Shown: positions 7,612 through 54,144 of the stretch, piece by piece
Numbering within the stretch: the stretch's first letter is position 1
Layout: the number at the start of each line of letters is the position of its first letter
From: Hirudinaria manillensis
Lineage: Eukaryota > Annelida > Clitellata > Hirudinida > Hirudinidae
Length of the DNA stretch: 64,000 bases
Direction: 5' to 3'
Assembly: GCA_034509925.1 (NCBI GenBank)
Contig: CM067535.1
Coordinates: 4,081,001 to 4,145,000, forward strand
Made by a program: the position numbers and the translations under genes
Notes under the pieces: model-generated
What the model saw: the letters and a program-made list of their open reading frames with translations, nothing else
Database searches by the model: none
What the model was told of the DNA's origin: nothing

Positions 7612-7828
7612 TCATGCGACCTTTCCGCTCTGAACTTTGACCTTTGAACCAAGGAGCACGAGGACGAAGTCAACGAGTTCGCAAAAGGTCAACACGCTGG
7701 CACCGAGCAGGAGACTCATTCCTGACCCGACCTCGCTGAATAGGGTCAGAATGGAGGTGCTGGGTTTCTGCTGGACCTTCTTGACCTTGATGTCCTTGAA
7801 GTAGATGTCAAGGTTGACCATGTTCTCC
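7612..7828 (-). CDS. DEG/ENaC last exon: pre-TM2 strand, pore and C-terminus
   Basis: Begins RENMVNLDIYF, the equivalent of ASIC ENILVLDIFF, then the pore helix SEVGSGMSLLLGAS and TM2. The selectivity filter is G-A-S, as in ASICs. The residue aligned to the degenerin site is Ser (F-S-E), as in ENaC subunits, not the Gly of ASICs. The cytosolic tail after TM2 is only about 15 residues, ending in TGA at 7612-7614, so it lacks an ENaC PY motif. Confidence 0.88.
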
Positions 7829-8327: not shown

Positions 8328-10093
8328 TCATAATAAAATTAATAATCATAATAACCATATTATATATTATAATAATTTTCGTTGAATAATTTTTTTGAAA
8401 TTTTTTTGAAATAATTAAATCGAAGAAAAGAGGCAACGTCGACCTGAGAAAATTCTCATCCAGATCCGGGTCAACGCTTGTCTTGAGCAGCAAGTCCCTG
8501 AGGCCCGCCAAACTTTCCACGAACGACTTGAACTTCCTGTCCATGGCGAGTGTCTGCTTCTCGATGATGGATTCGTATTTTTGGTACAACAGTTTGATGA
8601 GGACGAGCAGAGATTCTTCTCTCGTTGATGTTCTGTTTGTCGTCTGGGTTTCTTCTGACTGATTGATGATGATGATGATGATGATGAGGAGGAGGAGGAG
8701 GAAGAGGAGGAGGAGGGTTTTTTTCAGTTACTTGTTTGTTGGTTTATAAATTTTTAATTTTCTTTTAATGTTTAATAAATAGTTTGAAATAACACGTTTA
8801 TTATATTATTTTTGATTAATAAAATTATTCCAAAAGTGGCAGTTTTAAATGTCAAAAGATGATGCAATAGAATTTACGAAAACGAATTATCTTCTATAAA
8901 ATTATTTTTAAAATATAAAACAATAATTCCACGACTTCACAATTCAGAATTTCAAGATTTATATCACATATTTATCGACATTATTTTCAGTAATAATAAA
9001 AGTTATTTTAAAAATCTTACCAAAACCTCATCTGTCACTTGCACAGAATGGTCTCTGGCGATGTGATTGATCTTCAACTTGATCAGATTCGAGTCGTTCA
9101 AAACAGGAAGTGGAAGGTTCGTCATGTGATAGCAGGCTTGGTACATGTTGCTTCTGAAGCTGGTCAGCTGGAAATTGTTGGAAAAGCTACGAAATTATTT
9201 TAATAATTTATTGATTTAATCACTTAAAACATGAAATAATATTAGCATTTGCTATTATTTATATTTTTATATGTAAAAATTATATTAAATAAAACTTAAA
9301 ATTATTAAAATTATTTTAATATACTTTTTTTTTAAATTATTAGTTTAATGATTTAAAATATACAGTAATATTATTGTCGGCCATTACATAATTATGCTTA
9401 GAAATTAAATTAAACACTTAAAACCATTGGAAACACAAATTGTAAATTGTAAAAGCATTTAGATAGCATTTTATGAGTAGAGAATAAGTTAAATACTCAG
9501 GTTATTAAAAATATAAATTATAAACATTATATTATATAAATTATAAACATTATATTATATAAATTATAAACATTATATCATAAAAATATTAGATTTTCCA
9601 AATATATTATAAATTATTAAAAAATATTTTCACTAAATTTTCTTCTTTTTAAATTAATAAATCATTAATTATAAATTATAAATCAATTGCCTTCATGAGA
9701 AACGACGTCTGATCCAAAATAATTTCCTGATTCAACGTAACGACGGACTGAAAATTCTCAAAAAAATTGGTCAACTCTTCCAAGAGCTGTTTTCTCGTCA
9801 GAGTGGAGTTGAGAAATTTTTCCAAATCTCGGGAAAGATTTCCAAAGACGTGTCCAAAGGCAGAGGTCGCTGCCACAATCCTTCTGGTCATCTCAACTCG
9901 ACCTTTGGCGCTGTTGAGGTCAGCAAAGGAAGATTCAGTGGACTCAATGTAAGCCAGGAAAAGACCGAAGTGACTGGAAATGAGGGTTAGTTAAAACTAT
10001 CTGTAATTAATGATTTTCAGTTTATTAATTATTACTGATAATTATTCATTATTATTAACGTATTAGTCGTTATGATTATGTTAATTAATTAAT

Positions 10094-10128
<35 letters not shown>

Positions 10129-13100
10129 TTTGTGAATGTTATTCATGTAATGTTTATTGCATTTAATGAAGTCACTTGTTAGCGAAAGGGTTTTCATCGT
10201 TCAACGTCGAATCACTTCTGAAGTTCCAATCGCAGTTGTCGAAATTACTTCCATTGAAGATGGAATCGTCAGATTTTTGAAGCCTTGAAATGAATTCTTT
10301 TAAAAAATAAAAAATTTCTCTTTTCTCCCGCCATCTTGTCTCCGTGAGAAGATATTTTCTAATGGCGTCGTTGAAAACCACTTGGGTCTGGTTGATCCAA
10401 ACGTCAGAGATCTTTTCCAGTTGATGGAGGCATTTCAAATTCTGATCGCTGGACAAGAACGAGCTGTAGGTCGTATTTGCAAACAGTATCTCCGTAGTTT
10501 CTCTTCGTACGTTGACGGAGTCCATCAGGTTTTTCAAAGCGCCATCTCGATATTCCTAAATCCGAATTTAAAGTCACGAAAATGCTGGGTGGAAATCTAA
10601 GGAAATTTGTTAAATGTTTTAAAATATTATTCTCTAATTATTAATTAATAATAGAATTATTTTAATTAATTAGAGCCCTTATAATTTTTTTTTTTGTTTA
10701 TTATCAATCGATTCTCTGAACTGTTCCCATACTTCGGTATTTTTAAGTTGAATCTTTCTAACTCCAAGGTAGGTGAATACGTCTTCGTCATCGCAAGAAT
10801 AAAACTCATCCCAGGTCTGATAAAATTTATTATTCGAGACAAAATCTTTTGCTTCCGCCTTGGCACATTTGTCCAAGAGTCTTTCTATATTAATAGGCTC
10901 AGAGGACTTGAAATGCTCAGGGGATTTTGTAGTGCAATCAATTCTTGATGAAGCTCCATAATCAATGGTATGAGATGTTCTATCCGATTCGATGCAAATT
11001 TCCGTCTCCGTAAAACCGCAAATTAATCTGAAAACATGACATAAAATTACTGATTATTTTAAATTAATATTTATAATATTTAATATACACCAATCTAACC
11101 AATCTAATTCAATCAATCAGACCTTTAAGGAATTTAACATTTCCAATTATTTACAGCAGAAATTAGAACGAATTACTTGACAAAAAGGATGAAATAATTC
11201 AATTCTGGTTGTGAATTGTGAACGAGTTTCTTTTTAAACTGATAATCTTCAAAAAGGAATCTCAGATCCGACAAAAGCTCTTCATCTGTCGTCAGTCTGT
11301 GGTCAGGGACCAATATGTTTTTGTGATCTTTGAGGGTTCCTGGATGATTAATTAATGATAATATTGGTATATTATTACAATATATAATAATAATAACATT
11401 TTAGTTTAGACATTTTGTTTACAATTAAATAAACGTGGTTACAATTTTCTGCTGAAAGTAATTTTGTAAGAAATTTTCAATAATGTTATTGCATGATATT
11501 CATAAAATAAAAAACGTTCTATTAAACAATCCCTCAACTTGTAATAATAACATTTTTAATCTAAACAAATAAAAATAATTGTTGATAATTTATAATATAT
11601 TATTATTATATTTGTTATTGTGATTTTTAAGAATAATTATTCTTTGAACAAATTAAAAAATTTATTAAAGCATTTTGTTCACCTTTATCTTCCATAATTA
11701 ATTCCAAGTGATTGAGAGACTGAAGATAATTTTTTCCATGCTCGAGGATTTTTCTCACCAGGTGGCTCTCCCTACCAGAGGTCACCAAGCGCATCGCATC
11801 GCTGGCCGATCTCGCTTGTCTGATTTTATTTCTCAACATTTGGTCTGATGACGAAATTATTGGAAAAATAAAGATTCCTAAAATATTCATCGGTCTGAAT
11901 GTAAAACTCAAGTAATTATAAAATATTAATTATAAAATTATTGAATAAAGTTAAATAATGATGATCAATCCAGTTAACCAGTGTAGCTTATTATTTGTTA
12001 TTATTATTATTGTTATTATTGTTGAAGCTTACATTTATCATTATTCCTTTCCTGAAACTGTCGGACATTGAGCCTGGACAGCTGGGCATACGATATTTCT
12101 TCCATGAAGGTCGTCCTTATGCACGGAACTGGACATTCTGAGTCTGAGTTCGATCGATCCGGAAAAATATCCTCGACTTTTTTGCAAATAATAATTTATT
12201 GATCAATTTGTTTCAAAAATAATAATTATAATTATTATATACAAATATTCAAATTACACAATTTTAATAATAATAAAATAGTCAAAATATTGTAACACCA
12301 AACAATTGTAATATATAAACCTTACAATATTTTTGTGTAACAACATCTACATTAACAATAATAATAATAATAATAATATTGATAATTTTATTACATAAAC
12401 ATGTACATGTAAACAAGCACTTGTTCTATTATTAGCTAACTTGTGCGGTCAAGGGCTGCGCACTCCAAAGCCTTTGTAACGTTGCAAACCAGAGCTGAAA
12501 CATGGAAAACAAGTACCAAATCATTCCCGGAAACTAGAGAATCGTAGCTAAAACTTATAAAATTTCCTACAGGAATAATTCCAGTTCACATCAACAGGAG
12601 AATCGAAGTTTAGATTCTCGCATCCGCACTTTTCCCTCAACTTCTTCTTTTTAATCTCTGCAAAGCACTTGGATCTGGGCACGGCATCTGGTATGCAAGC
12701 TCCATAAGGGTAAGGAAGGTGTTCCGAGGTCACTGGCAGTATGCCTACCAGGGTGTGTGTGCCCGGAGGAACGGAAAAACCCAACTCCCCTACTTGGGGA
12801 AGTTCTGATTGGGGATGGATGAGTACCTGTGGATGCATAGAATGCGGTCTGAATGATTTGCAGTTGATAATCACAAGTAGCTGCGACAAAGATAAGCTTA
12901 TCAGTCGAATGAAAAGACATGCGTTTATTTTTCCAGCAGAACAAAATCTAAGGATTGAATTTATTGATTGAAGTACATGGTTGATAATTATTACGACTGA
13001 TTGAGCTTAGCCAGCTGAATGTATAAATTTGAATTTTTCGATTAAAAATTAAGAATGTAATTAAAATTAATATTATTAATATACATATAATTAAAAAAAG

Positions 13101-15025
13101 ATTTAAATAAGTTTATGACAGACTATAACTTAACCTATAATATGATAATTACTCTCCAATGATGGTACCTTTATTCCGAGATTATTTTTGGCGACATCAA
13201 AATATTCATAACTTTCGATATTCACTTTCAGTCTCAATGAGAAGGCGACACCTGTATTGTTGAACAATTGAATCTATAACGACACTTCAACAAACCTTAC
13301 CTGTGCTAATCTCACCTGTTCGGTTTGCATTCTGGCAATGATTACCTGCTCATTAACATTATCTTACCTCACAGGTAACCTAATGTTTGTTCCTGGCAAT
13401 TTGCAGGTATTGGCATACCTGCATTTCACTGTCAGGTGTGCGACGCCAAACCGAATTTACCTGATAACTTTATAGAAGGAGCGATAATAATACCTATCGA
13501 CTTTGGTCTATCGTCAATTCAGGTGAATATCCCAACTTTATACCTGAATCTTACAAACCTGGTTGATAGACTTTCCTGACTGAACTGCGATTCCAGTTGT
13601 AGGTGTAGCAGAGACTGAAGAATTCAGTTACGGTTGATTTGAAGTCTTCGAAGAGATTGCACGGTTCACCTGCCCAGGTGCAACTGGTATTAAAAAGGTA
13701 TAAAAAGTCAACGTACTATGATAGCATTAACAAGGATGACGATGAGGACGATGATGATGGTGAGCTACCTGTAAATGAAGTCCTCTTTCAGGTGTGAAGT
13801 TTTGAGAAGAAATTCCGTCAAGTTTTCGGTGACCAATTGTTTGGGTTCAACTTCGTCCTTGACGTTTGCCTCTGAATGTTATTTTAAAATTATTTTTTTA
13901 ACTACTTTGTTAATTTTCTGCAGAAATATATTTCTGAAAGTTGTTAAGTGTTGGAATTAATTATTTGGTTTATTTGGCAATAAAATTAAGACAATGAAAC
14001 TAAAATTTACTTATAATTTCAGATTTAACATTAGAACTAAATATAATATTTTTAAAATAACTGGGAAGAAAATTAGTTTAAAATTATCTAGCGATTGAAA
14101 AGTGAATTTAATACGAACTCGTGTTCGTTCCAATCAACTGCAGAACTTGCTGGTATGCCCCCATGTTCATGGTTTCAGAAATTCTGTCCAATTTTAAATC
14201 TTTTTCAACCAAATCTAAAAGTTTCTCCTTTTTTTCTTAAAAATAATTTATTAAATTTCTATTTTATTGTTTTTTTTTTAAATTAATTAATAAATTTATT
14301 AATACATGAAATAGATACATGAATAAATTAACATTTTAAAATCACTATCAAGACGGTAATTAATGACAGTCGAAGTTGTCAGTCACGCGTGAATACCGGA
14401 AATTGTTCTGGTTGCAGAGGGTGACGCTTGGAAATTCCAGGTGTTTTTGGTAGACCACCTGGACGTCCACATGGGATGAGTAGAGTGAGTAGTTGTAGCA
14501 TCTCATGATCAGTTGGTGCAGGAAGAACATGACATTCACCACAACCAAGGATAGAAGGAAGCATCTGATTTTGAGATCAGTTTTTAACGTCTTCATGAAG
14601 ATATTTTAAATTCGTTAAGAAAACTTATGGTCCTTTTGAATTTACTTTAATTTCTGGATAAAAAAAAATGCTGACCCCAAAAAACATAGCATTAAGTGCC
14701 AAATGTATCCACCCAACCTTCTGACCTTTGACTGCCTCTCCCCATCGCCTGAGTATCCACAGACCTTCATGCCGTGTAGTGTTGTTCTCGTGGCAAATTC
14801 CACCCACTGTTCGTACAAAGTTTCTTGACGGATGACTTGGCTTTCACTGTCGCTTCCATCAATCTGGCATTTTCCAGGTCCTTTGTTTACCCGATGTGAT
14901 TCCATTCTTTCGGACAATCTATCTAATCTTCTATAATTAAATCTGCGATGTCGGATTTTGTGACCGCTTTTATGTAAAATGGTTTGCTGGTCATAAAAAA
15001 AATATATTAATTTATTGGGTTTCAT
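7612..15025 (-). CDS. DEG/ENaC-family sodium channel, 16 exons, about 1063 aa
   Basis: This is a trimeric plasma-membrane cation channel subunit of the degenerin/ENaC/ASIC/FaNaC family. Exons, 5' to 3': 15025..14726, 14590..14368, 14214..14119, 13871..13769, 13683..13581, 13273..13169, 12826..12571, 12176..12033, 11844..11683, 11339..11177, 11027..10733, 10555..10176, 9973..9691, 9167..9021, 8658..8444, 7828..7612. All phases join and the total is 3192 nt. Visible hallmarks are the cytosolic HG gate motif (TTLHGMK), TM1, FPSVTLCNQNNFRYS, EDFIYSCTWAGEPCN, SLCYT, FSVPPGTHT, the cysteine-rich segment (CGCEN, CPVPC) and the pore LLLGASVLTFCELVDF with a G-A-S filter. Family members are usually 500-800 aa; this one is enlarged by an insertion before TM2. 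The start Met (15025) and the 14726/14590 junction are the least certain parts. Intron 13 uses a GC donor. Confidence 0.88.
8444..11844 (-). CDS. DEG/ENaC exons 9-15: large ectodomain insertion
   Basis: Residues about 444-991, encoded by seven exons (11683..11844, 11177..11339, 10733..11027, 10176..10555, 9691..9973, 9021..9167, 8444..8658). In ASIC1 only some 25-30 residues separate the PCNLTRY region from the ENILVLDIFF strand before TM2; here the gap is over 500. The insert is rich in predicted amphipathic helices, has 8 cysteines (an even number) and seven N-glycosylation sequons (NTT, NQT, NGS, NLS, NST, NDS, NRT), which fits an extracellular location. I recognise no known domain in it. 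All seven exons have compatible phases and bounded splice sites, so a chance run of frames is unlikely. Confidence 0.75.
9515..9582. repeat. 23-bp tandem repeat, about 3 copies
   Basis: An AT-rich 23-bp unit (AAATTATAAACATTATATT plus ATAT) is repeated nearly three times in the DEG/ENaC intron between 9168 and 9690. Confidence 0.8.
10083..10131. repeat. (TTTA)n microsatellite
   Basis: About 12 TTTA units in the DEG/ENaC intron 9974..10175. Confidence 0.9.
12033..15025 (-). CDS. DEG/ENaC exons 1-8: N-terminus, TM1, palm/finger and Cys-rich ectodomain
   Basis: Residues about 1-443. Exon 1 (14726..15025) holds the cytosolic tail with the HG motif, where mutations lower open probability in ENaC and ASIC. 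Exon 2 (14368..14590) carries TM1 (RCFLLSLVVVNVMFFL) and the post-TM1 FPSVTLCN motif. Exons 4-5 give the EDFI-x2-C and CYTY motifs, and exons 6-7 the GTHT and LPYPYGAC block. Exon 8 (12033..12176) ends just after CPVPC and the S-Y-A stretch equivalent to ASIC PCNLTRY. Up to this point the size matches ordinary family members. The intron between exons 5 and 6 contains a dense CAGGTR cluster. Confidence 0.85.
13249..13794. promoter_or_regulatory. Dense CAGGTR/YACCTG cluster in the DEG/ENaC gene
   Basis: Fifteen copies of CAGGTA/CAGGTG or their complements lie in 546 bp: 13249, 13298, 13313, 13343, 13372, 13404, 13416, 13433, 13458, 13520, 13541, 13667, 13675, 13766, 13789. Ten fall in the intron 13274..13580. 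Two form a palindrome, CAGGTATTGGCATACCTG, at 13404-13421. Roughly half a hit would be expected by chance. Such E2-box-like hexamers are bound by Snail and ZEB proteins; an intronic enhancer or silencer is inference. Three copies overlap splice sites or exons and may be coincidental. Confidence 0.45.
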
Positions 15026-16001: not shown

Positions 16002-19000
16002 TTAAAAATTAGAAATTTTCAGTTTATTATCATTCGAAATTTTGTCCCGTTCTGAATTTGGAAATGAATCGTTCATTTGCCCAGATTTGTTTTCAGTTTC
16101 AAGTCCATAGAAGCCTCCATTCACAAAAGCACCTTTGCCCGTTATTTGAGTTTGTATGCTGTTGTTATGGTTGTCGTGATCGTACGAAAGGTTATCAAGT
16201 CCCAGTCTTGTGCCATTGGCTTCTGCTTCTATCGTAAACATCGTGATTGGTTCGGCACTGGCCATTTCCGCGGCCTTATCTTTGTCGCATTTCCGACAGC
16301 AGGCACACTTTGAAAAGATCGTGTCGTAGGGCTCCAAAGAGTGCAATGGTTTTGGAAGGAAATCCCAATCTCTTAAGTTCTCCGGCAACCAATGGGGTTT
16401 CTTATTTTGAAGGACGTTTATCAATATCACCACGATCAATAAAATCACAAGCGGAATGCCCACTGCCATGAAAACTGTCGGACCTCCTAGCGACAATCCA
16501 AATATGAAAAGCGGCAAAAGAGCGAACATGACTATCAGGTAAAAGACGGCGAACCATCTGTATTTCGCCGTAATGTTTCCGAGCATCTTGGCTATGGGAA
16601 TTGGAACTCTCATGAATGGTATCGGATAGAAGATTACGATGCCACTGATATTGAAAAACAGGTGACAAAGAGCTATTTGGATGGTGTATCTCAGCTTCTC
16701 CGGTTCGGCCGTAAAGGCAGCCAACATGGAGGTCACGGTCGTTCCGATGTTAGAACCAAGGGTTAAGGGGTAAACCCTCTCTACCGTTATGAGACCCATG
16801 CCTACCAACGGGGTAAGGGCTGATGTGAAAACGGAACTACTTTGGAAGAGGATGGTTATGACGAGTCCCACCAACATGACGAGATATCCCGTGAAGTAGG
16901 AGAAACAGCCGGGGAAGTCTGCATTCAGAGCCTTTCTGATTATGCCTGTCATTGGACCTTTGAAGAGAGAGTTGAGAATCTGAAAGGTAAAAACGTTGAG
17001 ATTATTGTATTACAATTAACTATTTTCAAATAATCATTTGCGATCTATATTTGCAAGGTATCTTATCTTATCTATATAAATAAAAATGCAATGTGTGTTT
17101 GTAATGTGCAAATGTTCTCTGAAAGTTCTTAACCAATTGCTTTGAAATTTTGACACAACATATTACTCTATTAGACGATTGTTTTTATATAGGTTTCATA
17201 TAATTGTCATTAAACGTTATTAATTCATTTTGGTTTGATTCCTATAGAAACTGTATCAGTAGAACCTCAAATTAAGCATGGTGAAATTGTAAAAATAAAT
17301 TGAAGGTTGCAAAAGTCGTTTTTTTGTCATTTTGAAACGAAATTATGCCAAGACCAAGAAGGCGAAATCAGAATTGCGGCCGAATATCTTGAATTTCACC
17401 TGTGCGAAAGTTGTTTAAAAGCAAAGGAGGAATATCTGAAGAAATTTGTTGAAGGGAATTCAAAGGACACGAAAGACCAGCTGAAAGGTCTTTTAAAGAT
17501 ATTGAAGAATTGAACACTAAATAACAGATACCCCTGTGCGCAACCATCAGAGACCAAGCAAATAAATGTTCTGCGACAAAACTTGAAAAAATTAAACAAA
17601 TTTTCCGTCCATAAGCTGGAAGAAAGTAGAGAAGGAACAAAACAATGGAGCAGTTTGTTTCAAACCAAAGTTGAAACTCTCATAACTGGTATAGGAAAAG
17701 TTCAGAGTTCAACAAAATTAACATTTATTAACACGAAATCCAAGATTGAAAACGACGATGATAGTCAAAGGAAAAAAAGAATATAATTGGTCTCCACCAC
17801 ATTTGCAGGATATGATGGATATTATTTATACAGAGGAAGATCGACAGCAGATATAAGTAAATTAGAAGTAAAACAAATGCGAAATGGTTGATCTGACTTC
17901 AGGACGAATTTCATTGCCTCATAATTTCTGTAATTTCGTGACAAAAGGACAAAAGAAGAATTGATTGAAAAAGTACCTCGAAATATTGATATTAAATGAT
18001 ATCTTTATTTCTCGCACTCCTACGATTCCAACAGATGTGCCATTTCAATTTAAGATTACAATTCCAAATTCGATTGGCATTTGCAATCATAAAAAAACAT
18101 GGACATGGACAATCTTTAGAATTGCATGGTTTAGATTTAGGCACGGACTGCTTCTCGCATGGACAATTACATGTTGAATTTTCAGGCACGCCTGATAATG
18201 TCTACATTTATACAGAGAACGAAAAAGCTTACAATACCCTCAAGCATTGTGAAATTGTAAAAATAAACATATTAGAAAATATGTGCTAAATTTCTTTCTT
18301 TTTTAAATTAATCAGATTGAGACACAGCAACTCGTGGCTGGGCACCGCTAGTTTGTAATAAATTATCATATGTTTCTAAGAGATTCTGTGGCGCAGAAAT
18401 CAAAGTTCGTTGCCTGATAAGGGTTATCTTTATCCAGGTTACAAAAGATAATTTATTTTTTATTTTTGAACTGAATTCCAAACAAATTCTGGAACAGAAT
18501 GGCAAATGTCATTGCCATCACTATTAAAATAAAAACGAAGCCACTGAATAATAAATAAATTATTCAACAAATTAACTTTATATAGCGCTCCTTCTAGGCA
18601 CTCAATACCACTCAGAAGCAAGCTGGGTTTCGAACACTCGTTAGCATTGTCATTGACCAACAAAACTTTGGCAGACAAATATCTAGAGAAGCGATTTCTT
18701 GATTGAAGACAAAGTTATTAAACTTTTAAGGTCAGAGAGTTCAGTGCTAGAAAGGGATTAACTCTCGCGACTTCATTTTGCGTGGCTCAAGGTCGGTCAA
18801 TGTTTTTATTTCTTAAGAAGGTTATTATTTTATTTTTAAATTAATAATAAAATCTCTATAAAAAAAAATTTGCAGAGTTTTTTTGATCTTGGAATTCATG
18901 ACGAAACGCACTCTAATGAAATTTCAGAAGGGAAAATTATGCAAATTTATGCAAATTATGGTCATGTATTCCAAGATCCTAGTGGAACCTTTTTTAGTGG

Positions 19001-41428: not shown

Positions 41429-54144
<12,716 letters not shown>

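Follow-up and report, generated by a model that had tools for sequence, protein, structure and literature searches.

A DEG/ENaC gene with a long extracellular insert

In a 64,000-nucleotide stretch of the Hirudinaria manillensis genome (assembly GCA_034509925.1, contig CM067535.1, positions 4,081,001 to 4,145,000; hereafter the window), we confirmed a DEG/ENaC channel gene that carries an in-frame extracellular insert of 548 residues. Our preferred reading, to which we assign a probability of roughly 0.4, is that the gene encodes an ASIC1-like subunit with a helical domain at the knuckle that would bind a partner or matrix outside the cell and be coupled to the pore. This reading builds on a coding chain that is open throughout, on a paralogue with a homologous insert, on a shared insert position in four genes, and on the clustering of the channel cores of these four genes.

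DEG/ENaC subunits carry in order an HG motif, a first transmembrane segment (TM1), FPxVTxCN, CxxPC, and a second transmembrane segment (TM2) with a G-x-S filter. In the window protein, TLHG, FPSVTLCN, CPVPC, and LLLGASVLT were found in the expected order, and TLHG, FPxVTLCN, CxxPC, and GAS align with ASIC1. The protein matched the Pfam family ASC (PF00858) in two stretches with an E value of 2e-63 and 215.4 bits (cut-off 23.6). Without the insert, the core gave its best match among Protein Data Bank (PDB) sequences to ASIC1 (E 1e-39, residues 36-475 of 487), and matches to FaNaC were weaker (E 2.7e-19 and 6.8e-15), so that judged by sequence ASIC1 is its closest solved relative. The channel part is ordinary, and the insert is unusual.

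The gene model comprises 17 coding exons from 14905 to 7612 on the minus strand and encodes 1033 amino acids in a single phase-compatible chain without a stop codon. Acceptors are AG in 16/16 cases and donors GT in 15/16, the donor of exon 13 being GC. Exons were chained by hand from the minus-strand reading, with splice sites picked so that phases agree; phase agreement by itself is therefore not independent proof of the chain, and the open frames alone carry no weight because the exons were selected for being open. The exons, in window positions, are as follows.

14718..14905, minus strand: exon 1, N-terminus with the TLHG motif, aligned with ASIC1 TLHG
14387..14564, minus strand: exon 2, TM1 and the FPSVTLCN motif (gene model and ASIC1 alignment)
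14119..14227, minus strand: exon 3, finger region, with the least certain boundaries among the core exons (gene model)
13769..13871, minus strand: exon 4 (gene model)
13559..13683, minus strand: exon 5, CTWAGEPCN...CYTYN (gene model and ASIC1 alignment)
13169..13251, minus strand: exon 6, palm and beta-ball (gene model and ASIC1 alignment)
12571..12826, minus strand: exon 7, palm and thumb (gene model and ASIC1 alignment)
12441..12494, minus strand: exon 7b, thumb (gene model and ASIC1 alignment)
12033..12176, minus strand: exon 8, CPVPC, strand beta10 and knuckle helix, ending in phase 1 (gene model and ASIC1 alignment)
11683..11844, minus strand: insert exon 9 (gene model and coding score)
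11177..11339, minus strand: insert exon 10 (gene model and coding score)
10733..11027, minus strand: insert exon 11, homologous to locus L016 towards its C-terminal end (CDDED motif) (gene model and coding score)
10176..10555, minus strand: insert exon 12, homologous to L016 (gene model and coding score)
9691..9973, minus strand: insert exon 13, with a GC donor, homologous to L016 (gene model and coding score)
9021..9167, minus strand: insert exon 14, homologous to L016 (gene model and coding score)
8444..8658, minus strand: insert exon 15, ending ENFL ahead of the R of RENM, phase 2 (gene model and coding score)
7612..7828, minus strand: exon 16, RENMVNLDIYF, beta11, beta12, TM2 with the GAS filter, stop codon (gene model and ASIC1 alignment)

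A preliminary description of this DNA had proposed seven consecutive minus-strand exons, bounded by splice signals and compatible in phase with the flanking channel exons, that add 520-550 residues. The chained model agrees with it: exons 9-15 have AG acceptors in 7/7 cases and GT donors in 6/7 (the GC donor lies on 9973-9691), the phases match at all eight junctions between exons 8 and 16, and the insert contains the eight cysteines and seven N-glycosylation sequons counted there. We trained a codon model on 6433 codons from 12 intronless DEG/ENaC genes of this genome; in each of the seven insert exons, the chained frame received the top coding score, with 0 stops. Intron frames scored below zero in 47/48 cases, but the background was counted on those same introns and this result is partly built in; the informative part of the test is the contrast between frames, not the intron score. 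The insert exons had a GC content of 0.418; core exons 1-8 had 0.455 and the introns 0.234. Exons 9-15 sum to 1645 nt, a length that breaks the frame, so an isoform joining exon 8 to exon 16 could not encode the whole channel.

Inserts at the same position in sister genes

The search for related inserts covered this one genome. When the window protein was compared by local tblastn with 18 regions fetched from the genome for their DEG/ENaC matches, locus L016 (contig C9) was found to carry an insert (E 2.8e-19 for window protein residues 600-1021). Here the insert is a single open exon of 1491 nt or 497 codons (L016 3918-5408), flanked by one exon with CPNPC and another with RENFIKVEIFYKEL and TM2; both its ends are in phase 2, which would allow skipping without a frame shift. 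Aligned over 333 positions, the inserts of the window gene and L016 are 25% identical (E 4e-13, Smith-Waterman z 21.6), and four of their cysteines align. Since the alignment runs without a gap across window junctions 11/12 and 13/14, those two splice choices, including the GC donor, are supported from outside the gene model. No significant counterpart of the leading 186 insert residues (exons 9, 10, and part of 11) was found in L016; this part of the window insert rests on phase, coding score, and position. An own-genome search with the window insert had returned only itself (7/7 matches) and the same search with the L016 insert likewise only itself; because the former missed L016, a result later overturned by tblastn, misses in these searches are no proof of absence.

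Two further loci on contig C12, L023 and L025, have inserts of 480-490 residues at the matching position, with 30% identity to each other (Smith-Waterman z 98). In L023, the CPTPC open frame continues into the insert over 266 codons, and in L025 a 463-codon open frame holds CPSAC, which is not a strict CxxPC, together with most of the insert. As an observation apart from the inserts, the TM2 selectivity filter reads GCS in L023 and L025 and GAS in the window gene and L016.

These loci also bear on whether exons 9-15 might be spurious open frames or parts of another gene nested in this one. Such an artefact could be argued from the hand-chosen splice sites and the 186 leading residues without a significant homologue. 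They are countered by the frame-specific coding scores in 7/7 insert exons, by the L016 homologue lying as one open exon between the two equivalent channel exons, by the L023 and L025 inserts beginning in the open frame of a CxxPC-type motif, and by the frame shift that omission of exons 9-15 would cause. We rejected this explanation on the coding score, L016, L023, and L025, and regard it as very improbable.

We then asked how common the insert is. The genome gave 55 ASC matches, which we grouped manually into 28 DEG/ENaC loci (L023 and L024 counted as one gene), the match count being a lower bound. The insert was present in 4/28 loci and absent in 23/28. In twelve intronless genes, the zone that holds 548 residues in the window protein is 53-63 residues long, and in eleven multi-exon genes (two in L017, L018, two in L019, L020, L021, L022, L027, L028, and L029) the closest recognised flanking segments are under 920 bp apart, too little for an insert of at least 1440 nt; a further 1281-bp gap just upstream in L021 is likewise too small. 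The remaining locus, L026, has about 2 kb between the motif and the TM2 side and was counted in neither class. The intronless genes (L001-L008 and L030-L033) each carry the whole or nearly the whole ASC profile in one open frame; eight of them form one group in the tree, six of which are found in a stretch of about 58 kb on contig C2. Among the matches listed in a search of open-access literature, covering titles and the openings of abstracts, no such DEG/ENaC insert was described.

With the insert removed, the four insert-bearing cores clustered in unrooted trees of 17 rows (support 99/95) and 29 rows (92/86), grouping in 92% of 200 bootstrap trees in the latter. These values should be read with the rows L025, L017a, L019a, L020, and L026 put together from parts of exons and filled to about half or less, and with long end branches for the window row in the 17-row tree and for L027 in the 29-row tree. 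The 29-row tree further separated the four genes together with ASIC1, L028, and L029 from the 22 other loci of this genome (99/98). In both trees, ASIC1 was the nearest row to the window protein by path after the three sister genes, and it was the sole row from outside the genome.

The clustering leaves room for two independent insertions at one spot, one in the ancestor of the window gene and L016 and one in the ancestor of L023 and L025, and we treat this as a real possibility that is compatible with any of the functional readings below. Between the two pairs of inserts, no similarity was detected (hhalign E 0.44; Smith-Waterman z 0.3 to 2.3), in a comparison limited on the hhalign side to two-row profiles. 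Against a double origin stand the clustering of the four cores and the fact that all four inserts occupy one position, are close in length (480 to 548), and look helical. A four-insert alignment contained 13 invariant columns, which we did not use, since the two pairs have no significant alignment.

Position and predicted fold of the insert

Exon 8 tracks ASIC1 through the knuckle to ...KKFNKSEQY, and exon 16 picks up at IGENILVLDIFF. In the available part of PMC12658276, residues K384, K388, K392, K396, and E403 of hASIC1a are assigned to the knuckle and K380 to the palm, the knuckle is placed at the top of the palm as part of the inner scaffold, and E413 is listed ahead of the acidic-pocket group, which presumably makes it palm in our reading; PMC9052164, also available in part, has beta10 connecting the thumb to the knuckle. 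ASIC1 residue numbers were counted by hand, and the strand names beta11 and beta12 were assigned here. Together with our alignment, the knuckle residues named in PMC12658276 place the insert in the turn from the knuckle to beta11, at the outer top of the ectodomain, and not at the thumb-palm connection where the preliminary description had put it. The ASIC1 link that it gave as 25-30 residues is in fact 33 residues long, from CEMPC to IGEN, compared with 29 plus the 548-residue insert in the window protein. As to its location "just before TM2", the insert lies about 25 residues ahead of TM2 by eye, with beta11 and beta12 between.

As had been anticipated, the insert resembled no known domain in Pfam and PDB sequence searches. 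The window insert had no Pfam match over cut-off (the lone match, PF03029 at E 0.21, is far below it) and no significant match among PDB sequences (best E 0.85). In Pfam, the L016 insert reached at best PF21657 at E 0.0098, below cut-off, and the L025 insert exon gave no match. A four-row profile of the inserts found nothing closer than E 0.33 in PDB, the profile itself being doubtful as the two pairs are perhaps not homologous.

From composition and periodicity, the fold is predicted to be mostly alpha-helical. All four inserts are low in proline (1.5-2.2%) and glycine (2.4-3.5%). Helical periodicity at 100 degrees gave z 2.7 for the window insert, with 2/200 shuffles as high, and z 4.2 to 5.1 for the L016, L023, and L025 inserts, with 0/200 shuffles; no strand periodicity at 170 degrees was seen in any of the four. 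The window channel ectodomain shows the opposite pattern (z 0.4 at 100 degrees and 2.3 at 170 degrees). We consider the insert to be probably a folded extracellular domain. The seven sequons, which had been offered as a sign of such a fold, do not exceed what composition would yield: shuffled sequences had a mean of 5.7, and 341/1000 reached 7, so we dropped the sequon count as proof. Enrichment was found in the L016 insert only (9/1000), the L023 (730/1000) and L025 (135/1000) inserts not being enriched.

Possible roles of the insert and adhesion-type modules

Under our preferred reading, the insert would form a bundle of helices that stands out from the trimer's top and binds an extracellular partner, such as matrix, glycocalyx, a secreted protein, or a neighbouring cell. 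Force or binding could then pass to the palm through beta11 and beta12 and on to TM2. We infer the bundle, its outward projection, partner binding, and this coupling. In the part of PMC7958617 available, the shear response of alpha ENaC depends in part on the knuckle asparagine N511, adding a motif at N487 in the knuckle of delta ENaC raised that response in a matrix-dependent manner, and knuckle N-glycans are proposed as tethers of ENaC to the matrix, a mode to which we liken the one suggested here. In both cases the knuckle of a DEG/ENaC subunit carries additional bulk with a plausible tether role; the difference is that ENaC has single glycans there, whereas the window channel has a protein domain of 548 residues (PMC7958617). 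We prefer the tether because of these shear data and of adhesion-type modules in two sister loci.

The modules came from a Pfam scan of 20 open frames picked by hand at two loci, L023 and L025. A family exceeded its cut-off in 9/20 frames, several frames had no match, and additional MAM and CUB matches fell below cut-off. The L023 gene region yielded PAN, LDLa, CUB, kringle, and MAM, plus ASC for the TM1 exon, and the L025 gene region yielded CUB twice and kringle. The module frames lie on the channel strand between the N-terminal and palm exons. The two loci are as follows.

C12:9184500-9210500, minus strand: L024/L037/L038/L023, a DEG/ENaC gene seemingly spanning about 21 kb
C12:7704000-7734500, minus strand: L041/L036/L025/L035, the second module-bearing locus

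At the first locus, the TM1 exon (ASC 7.7e-12) is followed by PAN (5.6e-5), MAM (3.3e-11), LDLa (2.8e-10), CUB (1.8e-10), and kringle (1.1e-17), and then by the palm, helical insert, and TM2. The second has a WVEFVNRTTWHGLKY exon (weak match), CUB (1.5e-13 and 9.7e-6), kringle (1.2e-17), palm, insert, and TM2, with MAM-like frames below cut-off; its TM1 exon was not located. Module and channel exons are inferred to share one transcript at both loci. Within the first gene, reverse-transcriptase-like open frames at L038 3027-891 on the minus strand are probably an intronic retroelement. Elsewhere in the window, minus-strand open frames at 16005-17009 and 43496-45223 (576 codons) presumably represent an SLC34-like sodium-phosphate cotransporter and part of a CKAP5/XMAP215 relative, respectively.

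Several points weigh against the tether. It draws on vertebrate ENaC and the sister loci and not on the window protein, which in Pfam has no module over cut-off besides ASC, and the sequon count of the window insert is not above chance. The lack of similarity between the two pairs of inserts counts against it as well. In addition, the knuckle helix of FaNaC1 is relatively static during gating according to the available part of PMC11026163. The same observation makes direct control of the gate by the insert, as proposed in the preliminary description, less likely, while a ligand role may still fit those data.

A sensory role of the insert is possible, and the preliminary description proposed a lineage-specific sensory or ligand-binding module that could directly control the gate; as a rival to the tether, the insert may bind a peptide or a small molecule and thereby gate the channel. 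FaNaC offers a partial parallel: it is an invertebrate DEG/ENaC channel, and in FaNaC1 the FMRFamide pocket consists of finger helices and, in part, knuckle helix alpha6 of the neighbouring subunit (PMC11026163). This would put the insert close to a known ligand site. FaNaC is, however, a weaker match to the window core, and its site uses the finger helices (PMC11026163). Given also that the insert has no significant similarity to any ligand-binding family in the Pfam and PDB searches, that the knuckle is relatively static (PMC11026163), and that the thumb-palm location did not hold in the ASIC1 alignment read with PMC12658276, we judge the ligand module quite unlikely. Somewhat unlikely, too, is a purely structural cap, with no part in sensing, that serves trafficking, protection, or assembly of the trimer or heteromer. 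The place of the knuckle in the inner scaffold (PMC12658276, in the part available) and the amphipathic-helix periodicity of all four inserts, which suits packing between subunits, would fit such a cap, but with the insert in 4/28 loci only, assembly has no general need of it.

Additions to DEG/ENaC ectodomains are known from the C. elegans EGAS channels, whose subunits carry EGF repeats at another place than this insert. Taking the tether further, the four genes may form an undescribed class of ASIC-related, matrix-tethered sensors, with an old helical knuckle domain of single origin; two of them would also carry PAN, LDLa, MAM, CUB, and kringle domains in the segment from TM1 to the palm, which would unite adhesion modules and pore in a single polypeptide; we hold this broader proposal to be doubtful.

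As far as the available parts of PMC7958617 and PMC10148893 go, it is not yet settled how force or partners reach DEG/ENaC pores from outside, and the usual candidates for the tether are separate matrix proteins or glycans. A large knuckle domain and, in sister genes, adhesion modules in the same chain would, if true, give the channel a built-in handle. Such a domain could be expressed alone to find its partners, and removed or swapped to test its coupling to the pore. The turn between the knuckle and beta11 also seems to tolerate an insertion of 500 residues, which bears on how the ectodomain of this family has evolved.

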